36,697 nt of DNA, from positions 1 to 36,697 of IMG/VR virus record IMGVR_UViG_3300025889_000371; one strand, written 5' to 3'. This DNA comes from a virus. The notes under the pieces were generated by a model. It saw nothing but the letters and a program-made list of their open reading frames with translations, ran no database searches and was not told where the DNA came from. Shown piece after piece: positions 2,697 to 36,380 of the stretch (its first letter is position 1; each line of letters opens with the position of its first letter). The position numbers and the translations under genes are program-made.

Positions 2697-3283
2697 TGAA
2701 ATTCAGAGATTTTTACAACTGTAAAGGACACCTTGAGATCTGGAAAATATACAAAGACTCAGGGAAGCAAGAGCTTTTCTACAAGGAAGATAACGTTGTT
2801 TGTAGCGGTATGGGCGTAGTTCTAGCTGGCTTGTTCGGAGCCTCTGGAACGTCTGATATCGCAGACTTTCAAATCACTCTTTTCCAAGTAGGTGTGAGTG
2901 GTTCAACAGGTCTACAAGTGTCTTCCAACGGTAGGTTAGGGTCAGCCTTAGCCACCGCAGATTACGGTGGAGGAGACCTTGAAGTCGTTAGTCATGATCT
3001 TGTGGCTTCGGGAACTACTTACAACAACGAAGCATTTGGTGTAATTGATACTGCATACATCGATAAGATAGGCGATACAAGCTGTAGGTGGAGAATCATC
3101 CTGGATGAGAACGCCGCGAACAGATTTGACTCAGATCCTACAATTAACGAGATAGGTATATTTGGCTATAACCCAACACAGGCAGGTACACCAGCGTCCT
3201 ACTTGGCTGCGTATAGAACATTCACGGGAATACAAAAAACCTCGGACTTCCTGCTAGATTTCAGGTGGACAATTAACTTCTAA
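2696..3283 (+). CDS. Small virion protein, tail/baseplate-associated
   Basis: This 195-residue protein has no family I can name. It starts on an ATG overlapping the previous stop codon, so translation is probably coupled. The sequence has a basic N-terminal segment (FRDFYNCKGHLEIWKIYKDS), then a Gly/Ser/Ala-rich region from about residue 35, and later a segment NEIGIFGYNP resembling turns in tail-fibre and baseplate accessory proteins. It ends in RWTINF, nearly the same ending as the upstream large protein, encoded by an identical 15-base stretch. The context (between two large tail proteins) points to a structural role in the tail tip or fibres; that is inference. Length and coding quality support a real gene. 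Confidence 0.75.
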   Translation: MKFRDFYNCKGHLEIWKIYKDSGKQELFYKEDNVVCSGMGVVLAGLFGASGTSDIADFQITLFQVGVSGSTGLQVSSNGRLGSALATADYGGGDLEVVSHDLVASGTTYNNEAFGVIDTAYIDKIGDTSCRWRIILDENAANRFDSDPTINEIGIFGYNPTQAGTPASYLAAYRTFTGIQKTSDFLLDFRWTINF

Positions 3284-3285
3284 GT

Positions 3286-6200
3286 ATGGCAAACTTCGAT
3301 AACTTTGACGTAACAGGAGGAAGCAATAATTTAGATATTACTTTCTCCGCTCAGTACCTCCACGACGCAAGTGGGTACTACAACTATGAGCAGGACAACA
3401 TCCCTCTTAGAAGACTGATCAGCAGAACCGATCTTTTACATCAGTTTGCTGGTTATCCGGGAGATGAGGATTCAAGGGCAACTACACTAGTCCTATCTTC
3501 CACGGCTGATGAGGCGAATGGAATTTTCGATAACATGACGGATATCGTCAAGAGAATTCCTCAGAGACTTACATTCCCTCTTCTTATCGAACTGGCTGAC
3601 TACGGAGATCTAGGAAGCCTTAACCTCAGAGACATCACCACCTTTGGTAACGGTCAACTAGAGATTAAGAACCTGTTGCACGGCTTTGAATACAATGCGT
3701 CCGCAACATCAGTTTCAAGTGTAAACGGTCTTACCGATAACGAGCAGATCACCAACCCTACAGGAGCTACTAGCACAGGAAATGCTCTTGTTACTGTAAG
3801 CTCTTTAGACCTTACTAACGGTTTCATGAGTCAGCTAATAGCTGCCTCCACTTCAAGAGGGTCTACTAATGTCTTTGACGCATCTCTGCTATCAGCTACA
3901 GACGCGAATCGAGTGGCTAACTCTACCGTATTCGCAACCGTAACTAACTCTACAGACCTGGATATCGATAAGCTGTATTTCTCAAAAGGTGCTGTCCAAA
4001 ATAGCACATATGCGTTGGATTTGACTCCATACCAAGGCGTTTATGATAACACTATTCCTACGGATGACATATCTCCAAGAAAGGACAGTGGAGGAGGGGA
4101 TAACCTTGAGTTCGATAGAACTCAAATATCCTTGGACGCTAGTGTCGGTATATCAGTGTACGGAAACTTCTTTAGAGGAGTTACGCTAAACAACTGTAAC
4201 GGTAGTATTAAGCTCACCAATGTCTGTGTGGACGGTGCTAGTGGACTGGATAATACAGCGGATGCTCTGAGCCACAATACATCTCACGGATTCGATATTA
4301 CTAACTCAGAAGTCATCCTGCAAAACTGCGCTTCTGCCAGAAACAGAATAAACTCTTATCGCGTAAGAAACAGCGATATATTTGTGGCTGGTAATATGTA
4401 CGGCTACAGATCTTACCAGAGGGAGACCTCAAAGAGTAGGACTACAAGTTACGAGTCTGCTGGACTATATGCGGAAAACAGTAACGTAATCTTTGCAGAC
4501 TCTGCTCTTGGAATAACTGGAGATGCGGACTTCAACAGATTCCATGTCATGTTCGCTAAGTCTGATTACGGAATCAGGCTGAAGAAGTCAGTCCTAGAAG
4601 GAGGCACTAAGCTACAGAGCGGTTCTGTGGTCCCTAACGCTGGTGATACTGATACACAGACTTCAATAATCGCAACATTCCAGAACAAGAAGTCAGGTAT
4701 ATTCTTAGACGGATCTGAATCTACCTACTTTGGCAGACTGAACAGCTTCAACAACAAGCGTGGTCTAAGATGTCTCAACTCTACTTTAACTGTAAACCAA
4801 TTCACTTTTGAAGACTGTGAAAACGAGGGAGTATTTGCAGACGCCTCAAGAATTATTTACGGTTATAGAGAGGACGAATCAACCAACAGCAATCTTCCAG
4901 ACTCCTCTACTGGAAAGAAGAGAACTACATTCAACGTTTCAAACAACGGTATAAACCTAAGAGTTGTTAGAAACTCCGCCCTAGAGCCTTATGATGCTGA
5001 AGATGTAGCCTACCCTGACTACATCGGCAAATGGGGCGGACGGGAAGCGGATACTGGAGTTACGGGATCAAACGCTATGGTCAGTCACGGTTCCACTTCC
5101 CAGTCCAGCGCATTCAGAAACCTTCCGTCAATTTATATTTCAGACGCTTCTATAGCAAGATTCCTAAACCTTGCTGTTGTAAGGGGTGCTGACGGAGTTG
5201 GTCCCGGTAGATGTGTTCTTGCCGAAAGAGACTCAAACGTTTACATACACGGTACATCCGTGTCACCAACGGTCTTCAGTATGACTGCTGCTAGTGCAAC
5301 TTGGACGAATGCAGAACTTTTCCCAACTTGGAACTCAGCGGCTGTAACTGCGGATTACAACTCAAACGTTACCCTTACAGGCAGAACTAAGATTACAAGA
5401 TTCGGCGTAGGAACATTAGCTCTTAACGGGTCGAGAGTTCAGATTACAACTCCTTCTCGTTATGGTGCTGATTCTCCTGATACTACAAAGTTTGGTCTGA
5501 CAACAGCAGCTAACCAAACTCAAGTGCAGATCCACTCAACGAGATCTTGCATGGTTGCCTCAAAGAACTCAGGCATCATTCTCGACAACATCGGAGGTAG
5601 TCCTGACAGTTACTCAAATAGTGATGGTCAAAGCTCTGATATTAGGTATAACACCTCGGCTACTGGATCTGCCGCAGCTAACGGAACTTTATGGGATGCC
5701 GCAACTTCTGCGGCTTATATTCAGTTCTTCCCTAACGGATTCGCAAAAGCAATTGCAACTGGCGATACAAAGGCTGTTTACAATAACAATGCTGCGCTAA
5801 ACAGAACTGTTGCGACGGGAGGCGTGTTTATTGCCTCTGGAAGTCACGATGATGCCACAACAGGAGGCATGGTCATCCGAGCAACCAACGGAAGTTATGT
5901 CGATGTTGATAGTGTTAACTTCCTTTTTGCAGTACCAGCATCTAGCTTGTCTGGAGTTGCATATAACTATACTGGATCTGCAAACGAATTTAACGGTATA
6001 GAGCCTGGATGTGAGCTAGTTGGAGCAGCGTCAGACGGTGGTGTTCTTTCTGGTGTAACTTATCCGCCTAACTTAGGAGATACCTTGGGAGATGCCTCCT
6101 CCTGGCAGTTCTCTTACAGCGGGTTTGATGATTGCTTCTTCCCGCCTCTGGATGGTTCTGCTTATGAACTTAGTGCTTATGGCACAAAAACCCATATGTG

Positions 6201-7089
6201 GAACATTGCCGATACTTCAAGAATAGTAGCTAAGAACATCCTCATCAATACCAACAACTCTTTCCTAGAGTGTAGCTCAAACAATTATCACGGACCTTCC
6301 GGCAAATGGAGAAACGGAGTTGCTCTAGATTATTACGGTCTTTGGGGAACAGCCACAACATATCACGCGGCTGCTAACAACAAGTTTAGAAACTACGGAC
6401 CATACAGACTACACCTTTCCCACAGAGGAGATATCAAGAGTTACTACGGCGTTAGCGGTATGAACAGACAGGGTTCTGAAAACCAGACTACTGTATTTGG
6501 TCAAACTGGTGCTGGAGCGTTTATAGATCAAGTAAACTCTCAAGGATATCAGTTCTTTACTGCACAGGCGAAGCCTTTTGATAGTGGAGACGGTCAGCAA
6601 CTTTATTGGATAAGACCTTCCCAACTTTCAGAAGGTTCTATTCAAGGTTACTTGCAGGTTTCTGGTGCTGACTCAATCTTCGGCATGGGTATGCCTTCTC
6701 CTTACTCAGGAGTTGCATCCTTTATCCAACCTCCAATAGCTGCTTACCAAGCTAGAAAATACTTCGACACTTACAACTTTGATTCATCGAACAACGTAAG
6801 TGCTGCACCAACTGATGATCTAGTGAGCTTGATGCAAGCAACCCCAGGGTTTGCCATACCTCCTGTACACATGGACTGGCAGGGATACTTGAGGAACTGG
6901 TTAGATGATAGTGCATCTAACTTGTTTGCGAACTCAAGACACCTTGCAATGAAACAGGTAAACGGAGTTTCTATCTTCCACTCAACCAACAGCCTTGGAG
7001 GTGAGGGAAGAGGAGATGACGCAGAAGGCGTAACATACGGACTCGGAGTAAGATCCCTCAACCTATTCGATCTAGATAACTTACTGTAA
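3286..7089 (+). CDS. Beta-helix tail fibre or tailspike-like protein
   Basis: This 1267-residue protein has an N-terminal part with the motif YEQDNIPLRRL (about residues 34-44) related to YFAEVDNLPIRDL in the next gene; such a segment probably anchors related tail proteins to a common partner. From about residue 270 to 560 there are repeated short units with Asn ladders, such as NNCNGSIKLTNVCV, ITNSEVILQNC, AENSNVIFADS and CLNSTLTVNQFTFEDC, typical of right-handed parallel beta-helix proteins of the pectate-lyase or tailspike type. The rest is Ser/Thr/Gly/Asn-rich. No signal peptide or membrane segment is seen. Its likely job is host-surface recognition or polysaccharide binding, possibly with hydrolytic activity; I cannot point to catalytic residues. 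The stop overlaps the next start (TAATG). Confidence 0.8.
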   Translation: MANFDNFDVTGGSNNLDITFSAQYLHDASGYYNYEQDNIPLRRLISRTDLLHQFAGYPGDEDSRATTLVLSSTADEANGIFDNMTDIVKRIPQRLTFPLLIELADYGDLGSLNLRDITTFGNGQLEIKNLLHGFEYNASATSVSSVNGLTDNEQITNPTGATSTGNALVTVSSLDLTNGFMSQLIAASTSRGSTNVFDASLLSATDANRVANSTVFATVTNSTDLDIDKLYFSKGAVQNSTYALDLTPYQGVYDNTIPTDDISPRKDSGGGDNLEFDRTQISLDASVGISVYGNFFRGVTLNNCNGSIKLTNVCVDGASGLDNTADALSHNTSHGFDITNSEVILQNCASARNRINSYRVRNSDIFVAGNMYGYRSYQRETSKSRTTSYESAGLYAENSNVIFADSALGITGDADFNRFHVMFAKSDYGIRLKKSVLEGGTKLQSGSVVPNAGDTDTQTSIIATFQNKKSGIFLDGSESTYFGRLNSFNNKRGLRCLNSTLTVNQFTFEDCENEGVFADASRIIYGYREDESTNSNLPDSSTGKKRTTFNVSNNGINLRVVRNSALEPYDAEDVAYPDYIGKWGGREADTGVTGSNAMVSHGSTSQSSAFRNLPSIYISDASIARFLNLAVVRGADGVGPGRCVLAERDSNVYIHGTSVSPTVFSMTAASATWTNAELFPTWNSAAVTADYNSNVTLTGRTKITRFGVGTLALNGSRVQITTPSRYGADSPDTTKFGLTTAANQTQVQIHSTRSCMVASKNSGIILDNIGGSPDSYSNSDGQSSDIRYNTSATGSAAANGTLWDAATSAAYIQFFPNGFAKAIATGDTKAVYNNNAALNRTVATGGVFIASGSHDDATTGGMVIRATNGSYVDVDSVNFLFAVPASSLSGVAYNYTGSANEFNGIEPGCELVGAASDGGVLSGVTYPPNLGDTLGDASSWQFSYSGFDDCFFPPLDGSAYELSAYGTKTHMWNIADTSRIVAKNILINTNNSFLECSSNNYHGPSGKWRNGVALDYYGLWGTATTYHAAANNKFRNYGPYRLHLSHRGDIKSYYGVSGMNRQGSENQTTVFGQTGAGAFIDQVNSQGYQFFTAQAKPFDSGDGQQLYWIRPSQLSEGSIQGYLQVSGADSIFGMGMPSPYSGVASFIQPPIAAYQARKYFDTYNFDSSNNVSAAPTDDLVSLMQATPGFAIPPVHMDWQGYLRNWLDDSASNLFANSRHLAMKQVNGVSIFHSTNSLGGEGRGDDAEGVTYGLGVRSLNLFDLDNLL

Positions 7090-8627
7090 TGGCTAAAAGA
7101 ATAAAAGAGAACATTCGTTTCTACCTCCCAAATGATCCGTATTTTGCGGAGGTAGACAACCTTCCTATCAGAGATCTTTTGGACAATGATGTTAGAATGC
7201 AAGATCAGATCGATGAGCTTGCAGCAAAGCTAGGAACTACCGAAGGAAGAGATAAGTTCAATGAACTTAGACCTTATGTTAATGCTGTAGAGCCAGGAAA
7301 AGTATTCGTAACTCCTGGAACCTTTATGGCTAGACAAACTCTCCCAGCTACGAGAGAAGGTGGTTTGTCAGAGCAGCTAAAATCAGAGGCTGCGACATTT
7401 AATGTAAACACTAGACAGGATGCTAAAAACTCTTTAAACAGAGCCGCTGGCATAGGCAGAATGTCTCCTGTCCGATTAAAGAAAAATTCAGAGGGGGCGG
7501 ATCAATCTATCTCTATTGAGCAAGGAAGTTTAGACGATTTCTACTCTGATGCTACCCCTCCCAAGTTTCGCGTTGACCTAGTGTACGCAAAGGGTAATCC
7601 AGGCATGGATACCGACTTCGGTAACGCTGAACTAGGCGTTGTTAAGGGGGCGTTCTTTTTAAACGGCGGTGGGACATCTGACAGAGATGGCATCCTTCTT
7701 CCACGATTTGCAGGAGACGGAGAGGTCACTGATGACGAAGTAGATCTAACCATCGCAAGAATACTCTCCCAAAGAGTTGAGGATGTACAGACTCTAAGAG
7801 ATACAGGGTTCGTAAGAGATAAGATAGACCCTGAGACGGGAAATGTTCTATACACCTCCATTCCTTGCCCAGATGTAGTAAACCTTCAAAACTCCATAAG
7901 TGAGTTTTTAGTTCCAAGCGGCATATCTCTAGACGATCTATCAGAGTTTGCTGATTTTGCCTTGAGAGGCAGAAACTATTTCGCACTTCCAATAGCATAT
8001 GTATTCGTACCTTTCACATACGTTGAGGGTACAGCAATCCCTGCTGAGAACATTCTAGATATCCGTCCTTTCTTCTCCACACCAGAGTTAACACTGTACG
8101 AAAGACAGGCTATCTTAGGTTCATACAGACCAGGACTTAGAAATAGATTTTTAACGCTAACTGATCCGAAGATCACCGATATCGATTCTATTAACACAAC
8201 CCAAGACATAAATATCGATGATCTGATAGCTAGGGTTACTGCTTTAGAGAATCCGGCTGCCCTTTTCAAGCCAATGGCAGAAACGGTCTCGGTATATAAT
8301 ACTGCTTTTCCAGTCACATCGCCAAATTCTCCTGAACTCAAGGCAGGTAAATATTTAGCTTATGTTCATTTCCAAGTAGATCCCAATAAAGATGACACCG
8401 ACTATACAATTACGGTTAATTCAGAAAGTAACCTAGAACTTGGTAGAGTGAGAATGATCCAGAGGGCTGGTGGCAATGGAGATGATGATGGTTTTGGAAC
8501 AGCCGTAGTAGCTTTTGATAATCCAGACGATGGTCGCGTTAATGTGACAATCTCAGCTGACAAAAATCAACCAAACGGCATTACATTCAGCTATTTTGTT
8601 GTACACGGTTATGCAGGACTAGACTAA
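7089..8627 (+). CDS. Tail/baseplate protein with NLPIRDL N-terminal motif
   Basis: This 512-residue protein follows the fibre gene directly, with its ATG inside the TAATG overlap. The N-terminus contains YFAEVDNLPIRDLLDNDVRM (about residues 18-37), which echoes YEQDNIPLRRL in the upstream beta-helix protein, followed by a short helical DQIDELAAKL segment. The middle reads as a mixed alpha/beta virion protein. The last 120 residues look like a beta-sandwich (AGKYLAYVHFQVDP, DYTITVNSE, RVNVTISAD, ITFSYFVVHGYAGLD), plausibly a carbohydrate-binding or receptor-facing domain. It is the last gene of the run and is followed by a hairpin. I infer a baseplate-attached or fibre-associated structural protein; no precise T4 equivalent is recognised. 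Confidence 0.75.
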   Translation: MAKRIKENIRFYLPNDPYFAEVDNLPIRDLLDNDVRMQDQIDELAAKLGTTEGRDKFNELRPYVNAVEPGKVFVTPGTFMARQTLPATREGGLSEQLKSEAATFNVNTRQDAKNSLNRAAGIGRMSPVRLKKNSEGADQSISIEQGSLDDFYSDATPPKFRVDLVYAKGNPGMDTDFGNAELGVVKGAFFLNGGGTSDRDGILLPRFAGDGEVTDDEVDLTIARILSQRVEDVQTLRDTGFVRDKIDPETGNVLYTSIPCPDVVNLQNSISEFLVPSGISLDDLSEFADFALRGRNYFALPIAYVFVPFTYVEGTAIPAENILDIRPFFSTPELTLYERQAILGSYRPGLRNRFLTLTDPKITDIDSINTTQDINIDDLIARVTALENPAALFKPMAETVSVYNTAFPVTSPNSPELKAGKYLAYVHFQVDPNKDDTDYTITVNSESNLELGRVRMIQRAGGNGDDDGFGTAVVAFDNPDDGRVNVTISADKNQPNGITFSYFVVHGYAGLD

Positions 8628-18498: not shown

Positions 18499-20925
18499 AT
18501 GGGCGACATTCTAAACTACTTCCATAAGAACTACCAGAAGGTAGGGGTCAATCTATTTGAAGGCAGGACCGACTTCAATAAATACTTTCCTAAGAAAGCA
18601 GACGGAACATCACTAGGTCCAGAAGATTACCAACAGATCCTAACCGCTGCTACGTCGCCCGTCAGCCAGCCTACAGAAGAGATAGCAAAGCAAAACTCAG
18701 AGGCTGGCAATCCGTATGTGTTCTTCACCTATCCGAATTCATTTGGTGATCCTAGATATATATTCAAGGACGGAGCAGGAACGATTCATGGCTTTAAGGG
18801 CAGGGTCATTGACAAGTCTTTCTACGATATGATTGTAGCTGAGATACAAAGAAGAATAAAGGATAAAGAGATAGCAGACGAAGCTCCGCCTGACATTGTT
18901 TCTACCGAGGAGCAAGAGAAGCTAAATACTGAAACCATACAACATCAAGCATATGAATTCACAGACGAAGAGAAAGCAGAGGCAGCACAAGCCCTAAAGA
19001 AATCTGGGGTTGAAGACCTTGACGATCCAGATAAAGCAGTAGAGCAGTTTGCAGCATTTCTAACAGAAGATCCAAATAACCTGACAGGGTTCAACGCAAA
19101 GTTCTGGAAGTCTGTGTACGGCTCTGCACAAACCAGAGATCTTCCCCCAGCAGTTCAGAAAGAACTCTTTGATATCCATATAGATTACTACAAGATTGCA
19201 TCTCTAGTTGATGACAACGGAGTAATTCGACAAGAAGATTTAACTGAGAGAATGAAGGATGTTCTAGAGACAACTTACTCAAGAGACTCTTGCAAAGCTT
19301 TGTGGGCGGGAAGCTTTTCTAGTAGGTCAGCAGCACTCCAAAGAATAGCCCCATCTTACGCAGGTTGGTTTGACGGACTAGATCCAACTGGAGACCGTGA
19401 GATAGATAACTACGGGTTTAGCGTGAAGAGAGGAGGTTCAAGCCTCAAAGCCATGAGACTTGGTAATCTGCAAGACAAGCTATGTGATGCAAAGATCGTT
19501 GATGGTTTGGGTAATGAAGAACCTCTTGTAAAATCTTCAAGTTCTGAAGGCGGAGTAGCTCTTAGAGCAATAAAGACTAAAAAGGAAGATATTATTGTCA
19601 ATGCTTTGAACCTCGCTATAAACAGAAATCACTATAATGAGGAACAAACCCGCGAGGCAATTGAACAACTTACTGCTGCTGTCACGGATATCGTGAAGCA
19701 GTCCAAGCAAGTAGGCGAAGGGTTGGGGGTTCTTCTAGGAGAAAGCCAAGAAGCATTGGTAGGTGATTTACAGGAGATCTTAGGAGACTCCTTTGATGTT
19801 ACGACAACCGAAGAAGCTGTGAAAAGCTTCCTGGCTGCTACTCTCAAGGAGACCTATGCTTTTGCTTCTCTTATAAAAAAGATTGGTATTGTCCCCGTAG
19901 AAGTTGTATCAACGGGAAGATTCTCTTCTACCTCTAACAAGAGAGACTATCAATTTAAGTTCCAGACTCCAGAACAGGCAAGAGAATTTGAACAGAAGTA
20001 TGAAAAAGCAACGGGCATAAAGTTAGATAAGACAGGAGAAACTTCAATCGGTGTTTCCGTAAAAGCGTATCTAAGCTCCTCTATGAAAGGTGGAACAGGA
20101 TCTGTAAACAAGCTGTACGGAGCCTCAGAAAAAGCCCAAAGACTAAGACAAGAAAGAGATCAAGCCTTCTTCGATTCAACCGTCGCAGACCCAAAAAAGA
20201 GAGGAGATATTTATAGAAGCCTTATTGAAGGAAGGGAGATATACGACTCAATCGTCAGCCTCCCCATAAGACTAACTAGCGACCAATCCCTTTCCCCAGA
20301 GCAACTATCACACAGCCTTGAAACTATCGCTGGTGCTTTGACAAGCATGAAAGGAAAGAAGACAGATGTTGCTACCAACGTGCTTGTAAATAAAGCTTTA
20401 GCAATTTATAATGATTACCTTTCTAAAGGTCCGACTGATTCAAAGTCTTTGGGAGAGATAGGACACGTTCTCAGTAAGGCTATGAGAGTGTCAGAAGCAT
20501 CAAAGAGTGAATCCAATCTAAGAGCCTTAGCTACCACTGAGTTCTTTGATAGTGTGTTTACCCCTGAAGATGAGATTGTATCTATATCCCACAACGGAAA
20601 GCAATACAACACATCTGCCCATAAGCTAATGTTCTACATTCTTGAGAACGGAACACCTCGGATGAACAAGGAAGGAAACTTTTACTTTGAGATGGGAGGA
20701 GTCAATATTGGTTCCACCGCCTTCAGCAGAAAAGAAGGCAGAAACATTCTTGCGATGTCATTCAACGCAGAGGCACTTCTAGAAGATGGAATCCTCACAG
20801 AGATCGAAGGAGACAAAAAAGCTCTTCAAGCACTCGGTGAAATGAGATCCGAATTAGACAAAGAAGATGTCCTTGGAAAGTTTAATCAACTCATCGAATT
20901 GGTACAGAAAGCAATTACCGGGTAA
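18499..20925 (+). CDS. Large late protein of unknown function, possibly virion-internal
   Basis: This 808-residue protein is not recognised. It is hydrophilic and largely helical, with no membrane segment or signal. Residues 1-130 begin with MGDILNYFHKNYQKVGVNLF and include YVFFTYPNSFGDPRYIFKDG; 130-200 is acidic and Glu-rich; the centre contains a Ser-rich patch (SFSSRSAALQRIAPSYAGWF) and Lys/Glu-rich helices; the last third includes NGKQYNTSAHKLMFYILENG and FYFEMGGVNIGSTAF, a possible small alpha/beta domain. It is behind the tail tube, where phages often keep tape-measure, internal or ejected proteins, but the low hydrophobicity and lack of long heptads argue against a tape measure. The last 72 bases overlap a convergent gene on the minus strand. 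Confidence 0.75.
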   Translation: MGDILNYFHKNYQKVGVNLFEGRTDFNKYFPKKADGTSLGPEDYQQILTAATSPVSQPTEEIAKQNSEAGNPYVFFTYPNSFGDPRYIFKDGAGTIHGFKGRVIDKSFYDMIVAEIQRRIKDKEIADEAPPDIVSTEEQEKLNTETIQHQAYEFTDEEKAEAAQALKKSGVEDLDDPDKAVEQFAAFLTEDPNNLTGFNAKFWKSVYGSAQTRDLPPAVQKELFDIHIDYYKIASLVDDNGVIRQEDLTERMKDVLETTYSRDSCKALWAGSFSSRSAALQRIAPSYAGWFDGLDPTGDREIDNYGFSVKRGGSSLKAMRLGNLQDKLCDAKIVDGLGNEEPLVKSSSSEGGVALRAIKTKKEDIIVNALNLAINRNHYNEEQTREAIEQLTAAVTDIVKQSKQVGEGLGVLLGESQEALVGDLQEILGDSFDVTTTEEAVKSFLAATLKETYAFASLIKKIGIVPVEVVSTGRFSSTSNKRDYQFKFQTPEQAREFEQKYEKATGIKLDKTGETSIGVSVKAYLSSSMKGGTGSVNKLYGASEKAQRLRQERDQAFFDSTVADPKKRGDIYRSLIEGREIYDSIVSLPIRLTSDQSLSPEQLSHSLETIAGALTSMKGKKTDVATNVLVNKALAIYNDYLSKGPTDSKSLGEIGHVLSKAMRVSEASKSESNLRALATTEFFDSVFTPEDEIVSISHNGKQYNTSAHKLMFYILENGTPRMNKEGNFYFEMGGVNIGSTAFSRKEGRNILAMSFNAEALLEDGILTEIEGDKKALQALGEMRSELDKEDVLGKFNQLIELVQKAITG

Positions 20926-22391: not shown

Positions 22392-23366
22392 ATGGACCTA
22401 CACAGTATTTCAGATAATTTCCGCAAAGAAGATATATTTCGTGAAGAAGTACGTCCCTCCGATATTCTGTTCCTTCACGAAAATTATATTGAGGACACCG
22501 TAAATAAAGAAGTACTACCGTATACTCCAGCGGTATTGAAGACTCTCTTTGATTGTCTAAATGAGGCTGGTATACCTCCCGAAAAGTTTAACTGCTTGGG
22601 AGTCGTTAAGTGGGTTGGTGCATCTGACCTAACCCTTCTCAACGAGGATATCGAAAAGTTCCGAGAGATGCTATGGGAAGATCTTGATAAGATCCAACCG
22701 AAAGTAATCGTAACCTTTGGAACGGTCCCCCTTAGAATCATTAGTAAGCACCGCACCGTCGGTGAAAGGCAAGGTGTACCTTTTGAAATGGAGGATGAAA
22801 AAGGGAGAGTCATCAAGGTTCTCCCTACCTTCAACCCCATCTCTGTTCACAGCGAGCCTGTATACAGAACACAGTTTATCGAAGACTTGTTCAACGCGTA
22901 CAACTGGCTACGAAGTGATGACAGACCGAAGAGGTCTAAGAACTATTTTACAGCAAAGACTGTAGAAGAAGCTCTGGAAGTAATCAAGAAGTATGCGGAG
23001 TCTGAGGAATCCATAGCTATCGATATCGAGACAACTGGTCTTGACCACAAGCTAGACAAGATGCAGACCATCGGATTCTCTAACGCCAAGCATGAAGCAG
23101 ATGTAATTCCTATACATCACCCAGAGGCGGACTTTAATGAAGATGAGATCCAGACGATCCTCACAGCCCTACAGGACGTATTCATCAACGGGGCTAGAAA
23201 GTATTTGCAGAACTGCAAGTTCGATATCAAGTTTCTTATGAACTCTGGTATCACTAGGTTCCGAAAGATCTACGATACACAGATACTACACTCTCTGATT
23301 GACGAGAACAGAAGGCATGGTCTCGCTTCAATTGTAAGACAATATTTTCCAGAAGAGGTAATGTAA
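22392..23366 (+). CDS. DNA polymerase I-family: UDG-like domain plus 3'-5' exonuclease part
   Basis: This 324-residue protein has two parts. Residues 1 to about 180 resemble the family 4 uracil-DNA-glycosylase fold as fused to the PolA of phages such as SPO1 (LPYTPAVLKTLFDCLNEAGI, KVIVTFGTVPLRIISKH, VLPTFNPIS), but the GEAPG motif is absent and the usual His-Pro is Asn-Pro, so it is likely inactive. Residues 190-324 hold the first two proofreading motifs: Exo I AIDIETTGL (D211, E213) and Exo II NCKFDIKFL (N274, D278), then DTQILHSLIDENRRHGLAS. It stops before the third motif, which is on the next gene. The ATG at 22392 is preferred over an upstream TTG at 22368. A 5-base duplication causes the break (see repeat). 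Confidence 0.9.
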   Translation: MDLHSISDNFRKEDIFREEVRPSDILFLHENYIEDTVNKEVLPYTPAVLKTLFDCLNEAGIPPEKFNCLGVVKWVGASDLTLLNEDIEKFREMLWEDLDKIQPKVIVTFGTVPLRIISKHRTVGERQGVPFEMEDEKGRVIKVLPTFNPISVHSEPVYRTQFIEDLFNAYNWLRSDDRPKRSKNYFTAKTVEEALEVIKKYAESEESIAIDIETTGLDHKLDKMQTIGFSNAKHEADVIPIHHPEADFNEDEIQTILTALQDVFINGARKYLQNCKFDIKFLMNSGITRFRKIYDTQILHSLIDENRRHGLASIVRQYFPEEVM

Positions 23367-23367
23367 T
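23358..23367 (+). repeat. 5-bp tandem duplication GTAAT GTAAT at the polymerase break
   Basis: Two adjacent copies of GTAAT create the TAATG stop/start junction between the two halves of the DNA polymerase. Deleting one copy joins the frames as ...EEVM-LTVT... with no stop, giving a single protein of about 856 residues. This is what a slipped-strand duplication, an assembly error, or a stable gene split would leave. Confidence 0.9.
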
Positions 23368-24967
23368 GCTTACGGTAACTTCCCCTAACACTGTTGATTG
23401 GGAGAATATGCCCCTTGATGAGATGGCTTACGGTAATGCCATTGATTGCGATCTCACAAAGAGATGTGGCGATCTTATGGTTGATGAGCTAGATTATCTT
23501 GGCTGCCTAGATCTGTATGAGAACTGTTTGTCCTTGATCCTGCCCATCATGGCAGAAGTAGAGAACAAAGGTCTTCTTGTAGACACTGACGAACTAAATG
23601 ATATCGCAAGTCTTCTAGAGACAGAGATCGAAAGAATCGAAGACAAGATGTTTAACATTTTGCCCAAGGGTTCTTTTGAGAAAGGAGAAGTAAACTTTGC
23701 TTCCCCTAAGCAACTAGGAGAGGTCATGTTCAGCAGCAAAGGCTTGAAGATGACTCCTAGAATGTGGTCTGAAAAGACTGGCGAACCCTCCACTAGTGAG
23801 GCACACATTAAAGATCTCTCTAAGGATCTTCGCAGAGACAAGAAAGCTAACGAGAGTCGTATTGAGTTTCTTGATTGCTTGCTTGAATACCGCAAGCGTG
23901 TGAAGCAGTTCAAGACTTATGTTAACGGTATCAAGTCTGCTCTTGAGTACAACGGTGACGGTCGTGTGTACTCGCAATACAACTTCGCAACAGTTGTAAC
24001 GGGCAGACTATCCTGCTCTGCACCGCAAGTTAAAAAGCGTGTGGAAGGAAAGAGGGGGAAGGTCAACAAGATCTTCAAAAAGGGTGTGTCTTTCCACACG
24101 CTACCACGCCCAGACGAAGAAGGTAAGGATAGAGTTAACATCCGAGATATGTTTATCGCGGATAAGGGCTACACATTCCTAGCCGCCGACTATTCCGCAG
24201 CAGAGCTACGGGTTCTTGCTCATGTGTCGCAAGAGCCTAACTTGATCCAAGCGTTTAAGTCTGGAGAAGACCTACACAAGTATACTGCAAGCCTAGTATA
24301 CGGCAAAACAATCGACAAGATCACAAAGAAGGAACGACAGATCGCCAAGAGCGTGAGTTTCCTAATTGTGTATGGCGGTGGTCCTGAGAAACTAGCTGAC
24401 CAAGTAGGCATCTCAATCGAGGAAGCAAAGGATGTTTTCTTCAAGTTCTTCAAAGCTTACCCCGGCATTAAGTTCTGGATGGAAGCCACGGCTGCAAGCA
24501 TTCGTGAGAAGAAGTATTCGGAATCAATCTTTGGTCGCCGTAGACACCTTCCTAATGTGGACTCCCCAAACAACAAGTTGAAGCATCAGGCTATACGACA
24601 AGGCATCAACTTCATCATCCAGAGCAGTGCTTCAGATATCATGCTTCACGGTATCCTTTCTCTGTATGCACGATCACGAAAGATTGGTCTAGAGATTTTG
24701 GCTACCGTACACGACTCCATCGAAGCACAAATCCCTCATGAGAAAATTTCTGAGGCTGCTGAAATTATGAGGTCTTCCTTGTCGGACACCTCAATATTTA
24801 AGAAGTTGTATGACATCGACTTTGCAGTCCCTATGGCTGTGGATGTAGAGATCGGCTCTTCTTTCGGAGACGTAAAGGAAGCCCATTTCGATGAAAAAGG
24901 AAACCTAACCAATGCCCAAGAACTCAGCGAATATGTCCAGACAAAAGCGAATAGTCGTTCTTACTGA
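23366..24967 (+). CDS. DNA polymerase I-family, polymerase half (family A)
   Basis: This 533-residue protein carries the third exonuclease motif (YGNAIDCD, residues 22-29) and the whole family A polymerase core. Motif A is DYSAAELRVLAH (D275), motif B is R324-K328-F332-Y336-G (the E. coli 762 position is Phe), and motif C is VHDSIEAQ with D450, all catalytic acids intact. A stretch of about 25 residues near 225-250 replaces the usual NLQNIP region (RVEGKRGKVNKIFKKG). Together with the upstream gene it makes a normal phage PolA of the UDG-exo-pol type. The start ATG lies in the TAATG overlap. Splitting within the exonuclease domain is odd: the two polypeptides would have to assemble for proofreading. 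Confidence 0.95.
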   Translation: MLTVTSPNTVDWENMPLDEMAYGNAIDCDLTKRCGDLMVDELDYLGCLDLYENCLSLILPIMAEVENKGLLVDTDELNDIASLLETEIERIEDKMFNILPKGSFEKGEVNFASPKQLGEVMFSSKGLKMTPRMWSEKTGEPSTSEAHIKDLSKDLRRDKKANESRIEFLDCLLEYRKRVKQFKTYVNGIKSALEYNGDGRVYSQYNFATVVTGRLSCSAPQVKKRVEGKRGKVNKIFKKGVSFHTLPRPDEEGKDRVNIRDMFIADKGYTFLAADYSAAELRVLAHVSQEPNLIQAFKSGEDLHKYTASLVYGKTIDKITKKERQIAKSVSFLIVYGGGPEKLADQVGISIEEAKDVFFKFFKAYPGIKFWMEATAASIREKKYSESIFGRRRHLPNVDSPNNKLKHQAIRQGINFIIQSSASDIMLHGILSLYARSRKIGLEILATVHDSIEAQIPHEKISEAAEIMRSSLSDTSIFKKLYDIDFAVPMAVDVEIGSSFGDVKEAHFDEKGNLTNAQELSEYVQTKANSRSY

Positions 24968-25970
24968 CCTGCATATAAGGTGTGATTACTATCATGGCTA
25001 TCTGGAAGCTCAGATAGATACCCTAACTAGGCTAGTAAACAGTAAGCCTACCGACATTGTAATTATAAACGGGGATATCTTCCACAAGAGAAACCCCAAA
25101 GGACAGGAGCTTCTAGCTTTTCAGACTCTTCTGGACGGTTTTAAATGCTCGGAGATTATCATTAACAGAGGTAATCACGATACCGTAAGAAAGGGAGATA
25201 GCACCGAAACAACCCTGTCCTTGTTTAGGGACAAGGCTCAGATCTGTGTAGACAGAGAGCGTGTCCATATTGCAGGGCAAGACTTTCACATCATCCCCCA
25301 CTTTGAAGACGATGAGAAGCTGATCGAGTATCTCAAAGAGGCAAGCTCTGAGAAGGCTAATGTCTTTGGTCACTTTGGCTTTGACGGTTGCGTGTCAAAC
25401 GGAGCTTATGCTTATGACTCGTACATCAAGAAGTCTCATGTCAGACCCAACAAAGATGGGTTCGCATTCCTAGGACACATCCATGTTCCAAAGATTTATA
25501 ATGAAAATATCTACCTCCTTGGTACACAGTATACGACCTGCTTTGGAGAAGCAAACAGAACTCTTTACTGTCACGATATCGTGATCGATAAGTCTGGTAT
25601 GAAGGTGAACAGAACTCCTATTGAGTTCGGCATCAAACACTTCCAATGCCACCTTGAAGAGTTGCCACAGTTATCTAAAAAGTTCAACTTCAAGAACTTT
25701 TATAGTTTACTGAGACTCAAGCTAGACCACATGGACGGTGGTGTAGAAGAGGAACTCAAGAACAATATCTTTTCTAAGTACGATATTAACCAACTGGAGA
25801 TTGTCTTTGAAGACATCCTACCAAAGTTTGGTTCTGGTCACGTCCCTCATGCGAGGATTACAACTATTGACGATGACCTTATCGACAAGTACATCACCGA
25901 AAGCGATTCTATCTTTAGCAGATCTGAGTTGCTAGACGGCTTGAATAAAGTTCGATCCTATGAAGATTAA
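24933..25970 (+). CDS. 47: Recombination exonuclease subunit (T4 gp47 / SbcD / Mre11 type)
   Basis: This 345-residue protein is a calcineurin-type metallo-phosphoesterase: VVLTDLHIR (D12, H14), INGDIFHK (G47, D48), RGNHDTVR (N81, H82, D83), then VFGHFGFDG and LGHIHVPK. With gp46 it forms the Mre11-Rad50 complex that resects DNA ends for recombination-dependent replication. I chose the ATG at 24933 because the family core begins a few residues later; an in-frame ATG at 24912 is possible. The start lies inside the polymerase gene (35-base overlap), and the stop overlaps gp46 by 11 bases, the usual pair order. T4 gp47 is 339 residues. Confidence 0.95.
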   Translation: MSRQKRIVVLTDLHIRCDYYHGYLEAQIDTLTRLVNSKPTDIVIINGDIFHKRNPKGQELLAFQTLLDGFKCSEIIINRGNHDTVRKGDSTETTLSLFRDKAQICVDRERVHIAGQDFHIIPHFEDDEKLIEYLKEASSEKANVFGHFGFDGCVSNGAYAYDSYIKKSHVRPNKDGFAFLGHIHVPKIYNENIYLLGTQYTTCFGEANRTLYCHDIVIDKSGMKVNRTPIEFGIKHFQCHLEELPQLSKKFNFKNFYSLLRLKLDHMDGGVEEELKNNIFSKYDINQLEIVFEDILPKFGSGHVPHARITTIDDDLIDKYITESDSIFSRSELLDGLNKVRSYED

Positions 25971-27573
25971 TAGAGTAGAAATAGAAAACTTTCTTTCGGT
26001 CCAAAAGGCTACAATCGACTTCGATAAACTAAGCAATCTAGTTCTTGTTAAAGGCAGGAACAAAGATGTAAAGCCAGAGTCATCTAACGGTGCTGGTAAA
26101 AGCACTATCATCGAAGCGGTTGTGTTTGCACTGTTCGGAAAGACCCTCCGTAAGACTTCTGCAAAAAGCCTCAAGAACTTTAACACGAAAGGTAAGTGTA
26201 GCGTAAAGCTGACCATCAACGATAACATAGTTATCGAAAGAGTCAAAAGTCCGCCTCAACTGAAACTCCACATCAACGGAGTAACGGAGATCCAGGACTC
26301 CATAGCGTCTACACAGAAGCGTCTTGAGTCTCTGCTCAACACGAATATCAACATCTTCCTAGCTTCTATGGTGTTCGGACAAGAGAACAGCATGAGCTTT
26401 CTCACAGCAACCCCGGAAGAGAAGAGAGATATCCTACAAAGCTTTCTGAATATGCAAGAACTGTTTGCACACAGGACTGCGATTAAAAAGCTCAAGTCGC
26501 AATACACAGCAGACAAAAAAGTCAAAACTGCGTTGCTGTCCGAAACCAACGGAAGGATTACTGAGATCTCGGATAAGCTAAAGACTCTCCGTAAATACAG
26601 AGAGGACTATAACAAGCTGATGACTAAGGATCAGAAGTCCTTTCTAAGAAAGCATTCTATGTCTGAGATAAGAGAACTTGAAAAAGTCAAAACTCAGAAG
26701 GAGCAACAGCTACACAAACTAGAGCTAGATTTACAGTCCTTGAACAAGGAGATAGTTTACAACAAAGCTCGCATCGATGCTTTGGAAGACTTCAAGTGCG
26801 AGCATTGTGGAAAGCAGTCATCTGATACAGAGCTAACAATCTCAAACTTGTTTAATGCGGTCAAAGAAAACTCTGAAAAGAAAAAGAAATTAAGTAAAGA
26901 TATCGAATCTCTTAAGAAGAAGATAGACGATATCTCTATCCCTATCTCCGATAGAGAACTAGATGTTGCTGAACAAATCAAAGACAGCAGCAACAAGATC
27001 TCGTTGCTCAACGATGACAAGAAATCAAAGAAGAAAGATGCTTTAAAATACGGAAAAGATCTGGCTGACCATAACAAAGATTATGAAATTATGCGGTTCT
27101 GGGAACAAGCCTTCTCGGAATCTGGCATGGTAAAATTCGTTATCCAGAACATATTGTCGTTTTTTAATGACAGGGCGAACTTTTATCTTAGTACGATCAC
27201 CAAAGGGGTGTTCACCGTAGAGTTCAACGAGACTCTAGAGGAACAACTTTACAATAACGGTACTGAGTGTTTCTTCGACTCACTTTCTGGAGGAGAGAAG
27301 AAGAGGATATCTCTAGCCGTAACTCTAGCCCTTAACGATCTTTTAGTACTTTCTGGAAAAGAAAGATCCAATCTAATCTTCTTTGATGAAGTCGCTGATT
27401 CTCTAGACGAGGTGGGGATGAAGGGACTCCATGAGCTTATCGAAGAGATCACAAAAGAGAAGAAACTCTTTTTGATCACCCACGATGAGTATTTATTATC
27501 CTTGGTAGAGGATGATGCAGAAGTTTTAGATGTCATAAAAAAGAACAAAATAACCTCATATAGCCGTAGATAA
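25960..27573 (+). CDS. 46: Recombination exonuclease ATPase subunit (T4 gp46 / SbcC / Rad50 type)
   Basis: This 537-residue protein is an SMC-like ATPase. The N-terminal half has the Walker A SNGAGKSTIIEAVVFALFG (K47). A long coiled coil (about 170-370) carries one zinc-hook CxxC (C280, C283 in FKCEHCGKQ). The C-terminal half has the ABC signature LSGGEKKRISLA (442-448) and Walker B LIFFDEVADSLDE (D476, E477), then the D-loop and a His switch (LFLITHDEYL). It works with the gp47-type nuclease to process ends for recombination and possibly host DNA breakdown. T4 gp46 is 560 residues, so the length is normal. The stop and the next start (27574) are adjacent. Confidence 0.96.
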   Translation: MKINRVEIENFLSVQKATIDFDKLSNLVLVKGRNKDVKPESSNGAGKSTIIEAVVFALFGKTLRKTSAKSLKNFNTKGKCSVKLTINDNIVIERVKSPPQLKLHINGVTEIQDSIASTQKRLESLLNTNINIFLASMVFGQENSMSFLTATPEEKRDILQSFLNMQELFAHRTAIKKLKSQYTADKKVKTALLSETNGRITEISDKLKTLRKYREDYNKLMTKDQKSFLRKHSMSEIRELEKVKTQKEQQLHKLELDLQSLNKEIVYNKARIDALEDFKCEHCGKQSSDTELTISNLFNAVKENSEKKKKLSKDIESLKKKIDDISIPISDRELDVAEQIKDSSNKISLLNDDKKSKKKDALKYGKDLADHNKDYEIMRFWEQAFSESGMVKFVIQNILSFFNDRANFYLSTITKGVFTVEFNETLEEQLYNNGTECFFDSLSGGEKKRISLAVTLALNDLLVLSGKERSNLIFFDEVADSLDEVGMKGLHELIEEITKEKKLFLITHDEYLLSLVEDDAEVLDVIKKNKITSYSRR

Positions 27574-33722: not shown

Positions 33723-34910
33723 ATGGTTAAAGTCTCATACGAAACGGAGAAGAAGAAGAAACTAAAGATTCTAGCTTGCCCCGCTAACAAAGGTGGCTGT
33801 GCATACTACCGCGTAATTATGCCAGCAGAAAAGTTGCAGGAACTATACCCTGACCGTGTTGAAGTTCGATTCAACTACAACCCACTTGATTGGGATGAAA
33901 CAACGAGACAACCAAAACAAGAACCTAACCTGTCTGATATTGAGTGGGCTGATGTCGTATTCACTCAGAATATTCATCAGTTCGGTGGTCCTTACACTTA
34001 TTCTTTTATGCGTTATGTAAAGGAGCAAGGAAAGTTTCTTCACTACGACACAGACGATCTACTAACGAATCTGTATCCAGAGCATAAGCTTTTTCAAGTA
34101 TACATAGATCAGAAGTTATCGGAGTTAACACAGCATCTGTACAACATGGCAGACTTAGTTTCCGTTACTCAGAATAAGTTCGCTCACCGCATCTCTCAGT
34201 ACTGCACAGGCACATTAGCCGTCATCAAGAACGCCATAGACTTCAACCTTGATTGCTGGAACGCTCCAAAGACTGAGGCTAAGGTAACACGCATAGGCTG
34301 GGCTGGAGGCATCCACCACAGGGTCGATGTTCAACAGTTCAGAGGCGTTATAGCGGGTGTTAACAGGACTATAGGAACGAAGAAGAACCACTGGATATTT
34401 ATGGGAAGACCTCCCAAAACTCCTGACGGTAGCCGTAACTGGGAGCAAGAGGTTTGGGACGAATATGAAAGAAACTTCTTGACAGGAGCAAAACACCCTA
34501 ATGTTACATGGGCAGAAGCCCTACCGCCAAATATGTATGGCTTCTTGTACCAGCACTTAGACATTGCTATAGCCCCTCTTCAGATGAACGACTTCAACGA
34601 TTCTAAATCAGAGATCAAGTTGATGGAGTGTGGTCGTTATGGAGTTCCTCTTGTATGCACTAATGTCGGTTGCTATGAAGAGGTTATCAAGAACTATGAG
34701 ACTGGCTATCTCATTCCTGAAGAGAACGATAAAAAGGAATGGGTAAGAGTCTTGAGCAAACTTAGTAAGGACAAGCAACTTGTAAAGGAGATGGGACAGA
34801 ATCTTAAGAAGGTTGTTGACGAAAGGTACGACATCAACAAGCATATCCACTTACGCATAGACCTTTATGAAAGACTTTTAGAGGAGAAGCAAATTGCCGC
34901 AACAAGTTAA
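33723..34910 (+). CDS. Glycosyltransferase, GT-B fold (family 4-like)
   Basis: This 395-residue protein has an N-terminal domain opening LKILACPANKGGCAYYRVIM, a pattern of phage glycosyltransferases with an AYYR motif, then HYDTDDLL (an internal Asp cluster) and a C-terminal half with KVTRIGWAGGIHHRVD and the nucleotide-sugar region IKLMECGRYGVPLVCTNVGC and ETGYLIPEENDKKEW, the GT4-like EX7E area. It probably transfers a sugar from a nucleotide donor to phage DNA, phage protein or a host surface component; acceptor unknown. It starts right after the terminator and overlaps the next gene by 17 bases. First of four linked transferase-like genes. Confidence 0.88.
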   Translation: MVKVSYETEKKKKLKILACPANKGGCAYYRVIMPAEKLQELYPDRVEVRFNYNPLDWDETTRQPKQEPNLSDIEWADVVFTQNIHQFGGPYTYSFMRYVKEQGKFLHYDTDDLLTNLYPEHKLFQVYIDQKLSELTQHLYNMADLVSVTQNKFAHRISQYCTGTLAVIKNAIDFNLDCWNAPKTEAKVTRIGWAGGIHHRVDVQQFRGVIAGVNRTIGTKKNHWIFMGRPPKTPDGSRNWEQEVWDEYERNFLTGAKHPNVTWAEALPPNMYGFLYQHLDIAIAPLQMNDFNDSKSEIKLMECGRYGVPLVCTNVGCYEEVIKNYETGYLIPEENDKKEWVRVLSKLSKDKQLVKEMGQNLKKVVDERYDINKHIHLRIDLYERLLEEKQIAATS

Positions 34911-35694
34911 GATTGTTACTGGGTGGTCAAACCCTGGAGGGTCAACCACTTGCATCATTAACCTTGCGAAAAAGTTGATAGACTCAGGGTACGATGTAGA
35001 GGTATTTGGTCCCCACGATTGGCATATACATGAGCTTGCAAGACAAGGGTACAATGTGGGATTTGGAAGCAAATACTTCTCTTGCAAAGAGGACGATATC
35101 GTCATTAGCCACTTCGCCATGCTTGGTCCAATCAAGGCAAAGAAAAAGATCTACTGGTGTCATGAGATGTCTAACTTCATGAACCTAACGGATGATATGA
35201 TGGAGCCATACGATAAAGTAGTTTTTGTGTCCGAAACACAAAAGAAAACTCACTCACTGAAAAGTGATAGATCTATAGTAATACCCAACTTCATAGAAGA
35301 GTTCCCAAAGATGAAGCATGAGAGAGCTTGCGGTATTATTGGAAGCATAGACACAAACAAGCAAACCCATATGTCCATACAAAAAGCTCTGCACGACGGA
35401 GAAAAGAAAATATACCTATTTGGAAATGTCACAGATAAGGTCTACTACGACAATTTCGTCAAGCATTATGTAGATTCTGGGTTTGTATCTCCTCCTATGT
35501 ACGAGGCTGATAAAGTTAAGATGTATTCTATGATCGACAAGGTTTATCACAGTGCTTTGTACGAGTCTTTTGGTCTTGTGAAAGCGGAGTGCTACGCTTT
35601 GGGCATTGATTATATGGGAACAGTTGGTGAGGATGAATGTTCTTACAAAACAAACGATGAGGTTTTTGAGCTATGGAAAGAAATCCTAAAGTAA
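34894..35694 (+). CDS. Glycosyltransferase, GT4-like
   Basis: This 266-residue protein starts at a TTG with a strong ribosome site GAGGAG seven bases upstream, giving MPQQVKIVTGWSNPGGSTT, the usual GT-B N-terminus. The C-terminal domain contains KIYLFGNVTDKVYYDN and HSALYESFGLVKAECYALGI, an EX7E pattern (E...E) of GT4 enzymes. It is shorter than typical GT4 proteins (350-400), so the acceptor domain is compact. It overlaps the gene upstream by 17 bases and the next by 22, hence co-translated. It is likely a sugar transferase in the same modification pathway; donor and acceptor not known. Confidence 0.82.
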   Translation: MPQQVKIVTGWSNPGGSTTCIINLAKKLIDSGYDVEVFGPHDWHIHELARQGYNVGFGSKYFSCKEDDIVISHFAMLGPIKAKKKIYWCHEMSNFMNLTDDMMEPYDKVVFVSETQKKTHSLKSDRSIVIPNFIEEFPKMKHERACGIIGSIDTNKQTHMSIQKALHDGEKKIYLFGNVTDKVYYDNFVKHYVDSGFVSPPMYEADKVKMYSMIDKVYHSALYESFGLVKAECYALGIDYMGTVGEDECSYKTNDEVFELWKEILK

Positions 35695-36380
35695 CTATAG
35701 TATGCTCAACCTTCAACTCCGCAAAGTGGATTGATGGATACCTGGAATCTGTGAATAATCAGCTAGAGAAGGAGTTTGATATTATCTTTGTCGATGCGGG
35801 ATCAGATGACGGCTCCTGGAAAACAATCACAAACTATCAGTTTCGGAAAGGCATTAGCCCTCAGTATATCCAAGAGCCAGGATGCTCTATTTACGAAGCA
35901 TGGAATACTGGGTACAGCAAAAGCAAAACCGAGTATACCATGAACTTCAACACCGATGACAGGCTGTACCCTGCCGCAATATCTACTTTGCTGGCGTATG
36001 CTATAGCCAATCCCCAAGCAGATATGATCTATTCCTCATATCTGACGGTGAAGGATAAGGAGCATAAGCAAATAGTGAACCTGTCCATAGCTCCAGAAAT
36101 GAGCAAAAATACTCTGTTAGGTCTTTGCATTTGCGGTCCCTTTCCCCTTTTGAGAACGAAAGCGATTATTGAAGCTGGACTATTCAACCCTAAGTACACT
36201 ATCTCTGGAGACTATGAGATGTGGCTAAAGCTGCTATCAAGAGGCTGTGAGCTTATGAATATTTCAGAAGCGATTGGAACATATTTCTTCAACCCCGAAG
36301 GAATGAGTACCAATAGGGAAAGCAAGCATTGGCAGGAACACATTAAGCAAGACACAGAAATACGGAGGATTTACGCTTGA
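35673..36380 (+). CDS. Glycosyltransferase family 2 (GT-A fold)
   Basis: This 235-residue protein has the GT2 N-terminus KVTIVCSTFNSAKWIDGYLE and FDIIFVDAGSDDGSW, followed by the metal-binding DD of TMNFNTDDRLYPAA (DxD position) and the later SGDYEMWLKLLSRG, which holds the catalytic-base region of GT2 enzymes. It ends with MSTNRESKHWQEHIKQDTEI. Typical length is 230-350. It should use a UDP- or dTDP-sugar. It overlaps the genes on both sides (22 bases upstream and 4 downstream) in the same operon. Confidence 0.9.
   Translation: MERNPKVTIVCSTFNSAKWIDGYLESVNNQLEKEFDIIFVDAGSDDGSWKTITNYQFRKGISPQYIQEPGCSIYEAWNTGYSKSKTEYTMNFNTDDRLYPAAISTLLAYAIANPQADMIYSSYLTVKDKEHKQIVNLSIAPEMSKNTLLGLCICGPFPLLRTKAIIEAGLFNPKYTISGDYEMWLKLLSRGCELMNISEAIGTYFFNPEGMSTNRESKHWQEHIKQDTEIRRIYA

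Follow-up and report, generated by a model that had tools for sequence, protein, structure and literature searches.

The exonuclease and the polymerase of family A DNA polymerases are usually found on a single polypeptide, though this arrangement is not strictly defining. Phage enzymes that are split have been known singly, in many cases with a link to mobile elements. The polymerase of phi18, an SPO1-like Bacillus phage, is a single chain made up of a UDG-like domain, a 3'-5' exonuclease and a polymerase, and has an Exo III motif of Y-x3-D. The clade described here shares this domain order and its motifs, but has two chains and an Exo III motif of G-N-x-x-D.

The replicative polymerase of the Aeromonas T4-like phages 25 and 44RR is encoded on two genes, 43A and 43B, and the products of the phage 25 genes co-purify with polymerase activity (PMC2988022). 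That co-purification is a precedent for the reassembly of two halves, whereas the halves considered here are known from their sequences; 43A/43B is, in addition, a family B enzyme with either a seg endonuclease or an untranslated spacer, while the present polymerase belongs to family A. The split nrdA of Aeh1 (PMC2988022) is likewise an essential enzyme that is cut through a critical region and is active as two chains but, unlike the present polymerase, it is a ribonucleotide reductase and is accompanied by the mobE endonuclease. In the marine OM43 phages MEP401 and MEP402 (Zobellviridae; PMC10580990) the family A polymerase is likewise encoded by two ORFs, which a third, small one separates. 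Their cut is inside the polymerase domain, at about 78 to 159 of the polymerase profile, rather than in the exonuclease, and as the site differs the event must have been independent of the one described here. We found no published description, mainly in the freely accessible literature, of a clade-wide polymerase split between Exo II and Exo III, nor is the present split described in the available portions of the papers on virioplankton PolA and on polymerase swapping.

The polymerase locus and its carriers

The window, by which we mean the whole stretch of 36,697 nucleotides that was analysed (IMG/VR record IMGVR_UViG_3300025889_000371), contains genes for a tail sheath, a sheath stabiliser, a head-tail adaptor, a major head protein, SSB, a DnaB-like helicase, RNR and SbcCD. 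Given the tail sheath and the sheath stabiliser, among others, it derives from a contractile-tailed phage. Two glycosyltransferase-like genes (phrog_7162, GtrB-like) are situated close to its right-hand end (33723-36380). The regions 3-8627 and 18499-20925 contain large ORFs of 897, 1267, 512 and 808 residues without a PHROG match; these may encode tail or baseplate components in a group of phages that has not been sampled.

The polymerase is carried on two ORFs of the plus strand. The exo half (ORF1, 22392..23366) encodes 324 residues ending in FPEEVM and comprises a family-4 UDG-like domain and the 3'-5' exonuclease through Exo II. The C half (ORF2, 23366..24967) encodes 533 residues, begins MLTVTSPNTVDW and comprises the Exo III helix (G23...D27...T31) and the thumb, palm and fingers of a family A polymerase. 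In Pfam ORF1 matches UDG (PF03167) and DNA_pol_A_exo1, the latter match ending at profile position 128 of 173, while ORF2 matches DNA_pol_A (PF00476; E 3.9e-90, profile 2-380 of 381). The exonuclease residues of ORF1, assigned from invariant alignment columns, are D211 and E213 in DIETTG and N274 and D278 in NCKFD. The Exo III aspartate is found 26 residues after the start of the C half, followed by the polymerase, in which the residues of motifs A, B and C are conserved in the C-half alignment. SbcD-like and SbcC-like genes are positioned downstream (24912..27573, plus strand) in an order shared with the distant relatives L008, L012 and L125.

The two frames meet at GTAATGTAATG (23358..23368, plus strand), where the TAA stop of the exo half and the ATG start of the C half overlap by one base to give TAATG. 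A sequence-only reading of this DNA had described two ORFs meeting at a GTAAT repeat, and its coordinates, frames and junction were all exact. The division that it made, with the UDG-like domain, Exo I and Exo II on the first ORF and Exo III and the polymerase on the second, agrees with Pfam, its placing of the cut after Exo II and before Exo III is correct by domain and motif mapping, and the SPO1-like order that it recognised, UDG-like domain included, is that of the phi18 enzyme. In fused homologues the position of the junction corresponds to a loop of variable length that leads from the helix after Exo II to the Exo III helix. We take this to be around residue 474 in E. coli Pol I numbering, with the Exo III aspartate as D501, and a Klenow profile match (profile 199-318 to chain 6-126) agrees with this placement.

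Modelled alone with AlphaFold, the exo half and the C half gave pLDDT values of 85.7 and 87.0, respectively. In Foldseek the model of the exo half matched UdgX/family-4 UDG and the Klenow exonuclease, UDG-type proteins and Klenow also being found by a profile search, and the model of the C half matched the Bst, Taq and Klenow polymerases with E about 1e-28. Residues 1-30 of the isolated C half are poorly ordered, with pLDDT below 50 for the first 15 and block means of 37, 51 and 64. This predicted disorder is suggestive of a piece that would complete a fold supplied by the exo half.

A search of annotated phages at the DNA level gave no match, and among the matches listed from 50,697 phage records no cultured relative exceeded about 32% protein identity. 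A scan of genomes gave one clade member only, L125 (QCKN01000003.1, 130,604 bp), a contig in the single-cell assembly of Prochlorococcus sp. AG-409-P03 with a tail sheath, a major head protein and a polymerase in three pieces. As a hint of the host, it is possible that Prochlorococcus is infected by one subclade, or that the virus was co-sorted with the cell. The clade is a large one of environmental, uncultured phages with contractile tails, which by our guess are mostly aquatic.

A single split, conserved across the clade

Loci were gathered through iterated searches of IMG/VR and of genomes, and all of them were then classified with profiles. Both regions are present in 126 sequence-distinct loci, of which 114 are split at the Exo II/Exo III position and 12 are fused. 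The fused loci (among L073-L086, plus L121, L123 and L126) form a remote outgroup. Within the clade none of the 114 is fused, the polymerase being on two or three ORFs in every one, and relatives with 31-34% identity in the exo half carry the same split. In a quick maximum-likelihood tree (LG+G4, 93 rows), where the outgroup branches are long and their exact placement is unsure, a single change explains the split at the first junction, with an SH-aLRT of 96 at the base. Of the two main subclades, one includes the window, which branches off deeply there. The split of the polymerase is ancient and fixed and is not a recent break.

Both halves are under purifying selection, with dN/dS between 0.02 and 0.28, far below 1, in either half for every close pair where it was computable. 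They also occur together without exception: where more than 4 kb follows an exo half the C half is present in 154/154 cases, and where more than 4 kb precedes a C half the exo half is present in 184/184, always in order, though these counts overlap where loci share a contig. The distances between loci for the two halves are correlated (Mantel r 0.92, compared with at most 0.11 when permuted). In five relatives of 70-102 kb, each record has a single PF00476 match and none to the family B polymerase PF00136, though these contigs may be incomplete; the split enzyme is therefore probably the replicative polymerase of the clade.

D211 and E213 of Exo I and F277 and D278 of Exo II are invariant in 48 exo halves, and the Exo III aspartate D27 is invariant in 34 C halves. 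All four metal-binding carboxylates of the DEDDy site are thus conserved, three on the exo half and one on the C half. The Exo II asparagine varies in a few members (L108, L135, L136 and L196). In place of the tyrosine of the DEDDy site, four residues before the last aspartate, members of the split clade have a glycine (G-[NC]-x-x-D), while Y-x3-D is present in the fused phi18, L121 and L078. The exonuclease chemistry may have been weakened or changed by this substitution, and it is because of it that we consider proofreading by the two-chain enzyme likely but not certain. Since the change from tyrosine to glycine goes with the split across the whole clade, it could also be read as the mark of an exo half that is now independent or purely structural, in a complex without proofreading. 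This seems unlikely to us, as the four carboxylates are kept across the two chains over deep divergence under strong purifying selection, and the Exo III aspartate is on the polymerase chain, where neither a dead nor a stand-alone exonuclease would need it.

The junction and the genes inserted there

Exo halves mostly end in ..(Y/F)FPxEL.., and C halves start with the motif M-L-T-V...W...GNAxD, the first four residues being MLTV or MLTI in 108 of the 114 loci and VLTV, MLSI or MLNI in the others. In the 34 aligned C halves M1, L2, W12, L17, G23, D27 and T31 are invariant. The halves are adjacent in 47 loci, and 39 of these junctions have a one-base overlap, which is TAA/ATG in 36; the stop and the start are kept although the surrounding bases differ. 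Other genes of the window frequently overlap by one base too, and TAATG is commonly found where genes of this phage meet. A Shine-Dalgarno-like stretch is found immediately 5' of the C-half start of the window (23352..23359, plus strand, the AGAAGAGG region), which we regard as weak evidence; similar motifs are present at 23/47 adjacent junctions and 13/67 junctions with inserts, compared with 10% of control windows. Stop-start translational coupling at TAATG would be the usual means of expressing the C half.

In the other 67 of the 114 loci the halves are separated by 172-3732 nt, often by entire unrelated genes. Glutamine synthetase is found at 31 loci, where Pfam matches the N domain but, of the catalytic domain, only its beginning (e.g. 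9-156 of 344). By eye, those of L025, L027, L093, L100, L103 and others look GSII-like. ThyX is found at seven loci and a saccharopine dehydrogenase-like protein at four; phage genes of the latter kind are seen at the polymerase insertion point in L029, L035 and L192. A 2OG-Fe(II) oxygenase, a DUF3310 protein and a glycosyltransferase of family 2 are also encoded there, along with small ORFs for membrane or unknown proteins; some of the inserts are on the opposite strand. On the tree the presence of an insert requires 15 changes, and sister loci differ: L031 is adjacent while L027 has glutamine synthetase, and L008 is adjacent while L012 has a 91-residue ORF. Gain and loss of inserts must therefore be recent and repeated.

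A second cut is found in 51 loci, in the thumb region some 160 residues beyond the start of the C half, giving a polymerase in three pieces; it was noted in L007-L016, L045-L072 and L092-L098 (e.g. L008:6372-6388). Two changes on the tree are needed to explain it. In L011 the second junction is in frame, with two bases different from its neighbours. Separately, a remote family A polymerase on the 119,995-bp contig L085 (3168-7146) is uncut at the first junction but is broken within the palm, where the pieces are separated by three ORFs of unknown function, with no Rfam intron; the site resembles that of the MEP401 split.

The recurrence of insertions at the junction would suit an origin in which a homing endonuclease split the gene and was later lost or replaced, as has been argued for T4-like split genes, and such a route is known for nrdA of Aeh1 and possibly for gene 43 of phage 25 (PMC2988022). 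We find this origin doubtful here, because the inserts recognised by Pfam are metabolic or other non-endonuclease genes and no homing endonuclease family was recognised among the inserts tested, though many small inserts have no assigned family. An endonuclease gene at the break, the hallmark of genes split in this way, is absent from the tested inserts, and the window has no insert.

It is very improbable that the two ORFs yield one protein by a programmed frameshift, an intron (including one of an undescribed class) or an intein. The frames of the window are adjacent and a shift of -1 or +2 would read through, but there is no X-XXY-YYZ slippery heptamer in the final 60 nt of ORF1, as the sequence-only reading had noted, and what is conserved between loci is the stop and the start while the bases differ. 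Whole genes between the halves cannot be bridged by a frameshift, which excludes frameshifting as a general route of expression. No Rfam family was matched in the window and no Rfam intron in 12 insert-bearing loci, the RNA fold at the window junction is nothing unusual (z = -0.64), and an intein would have no room, since one half stops and the other starts exactly at the junction.

The claim that a recent 5-bp slippage or an assembly error had broken a normally fused gene in one genome can be given almost no credence. The 5-bp tandem repeat in GTAATGTAATG is perfect and the loss of one GTAAT copy does fuse the frames, but 114 distinct loci are split alike from one origin, the junction bases are identical in two other metagenome contigs (L002/L005 and L003), and the repeat, absent from 45 of the 47 adjacent junctions and private to the window and the near-identical L003, cannot have caused the split. 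That the frames fuse when 5 bp are removed seems to be coincidental, arising from the TAATG overlap. The other option offered by that reading, a fixed split with reinitiation at TAATG, is by contrast strongly supported.

A probable two-chain polymerase

Taken together, we are confident in an ancient, fixed split that most likely gives a functional two-chain enzyme with translational coupling at TAATG. A single event in the clade ancestor interrupted the polymerase gene at the variable loop that separates Exo II from Exo III, and thereafter an N-terminal protein (UDG-like domain, Exo I and Exo II) and a C-terminal protein (Exo III and polymerase) have been made separately, the stop-start overlap probably in most cases linking their translation. 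Most likely the two chains reassemble into a Klenow-like enzyme, with an exonuclease site that takes acidic residues from both; we infer this reassembly, and with it proofreading and the coupling. Since the split the junction has behaved like any intergenic position, with unrelated genes coming and going there. A fuller reading adds a proofreading site of two polypeptides fixed since the ancestor, an altered chemistry through the change of tyrosine to glycine, and a junction serving as a platform for metabolic cargo, with the essential halves flanking and co-expressing that cargo; this combination we put forward tentatively, as a little short of an even prospect.

Annotation pipelines are likely to label such polymerases as truncated or frameshifted, and the inserted glutamine synthetase or ThyX is likely to be read without its position inside a polymerase being noticed. 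Throughout a deep clade, what is probably the replicative polymerase is in several parts: one cut runs through a catalytic domain, and large subclades have a further one in the thumb. These phages would provide a natural system for testing the limits of polymerase fragmentation, proofreading in trans and the sheltering of cargo within a split essential gene.
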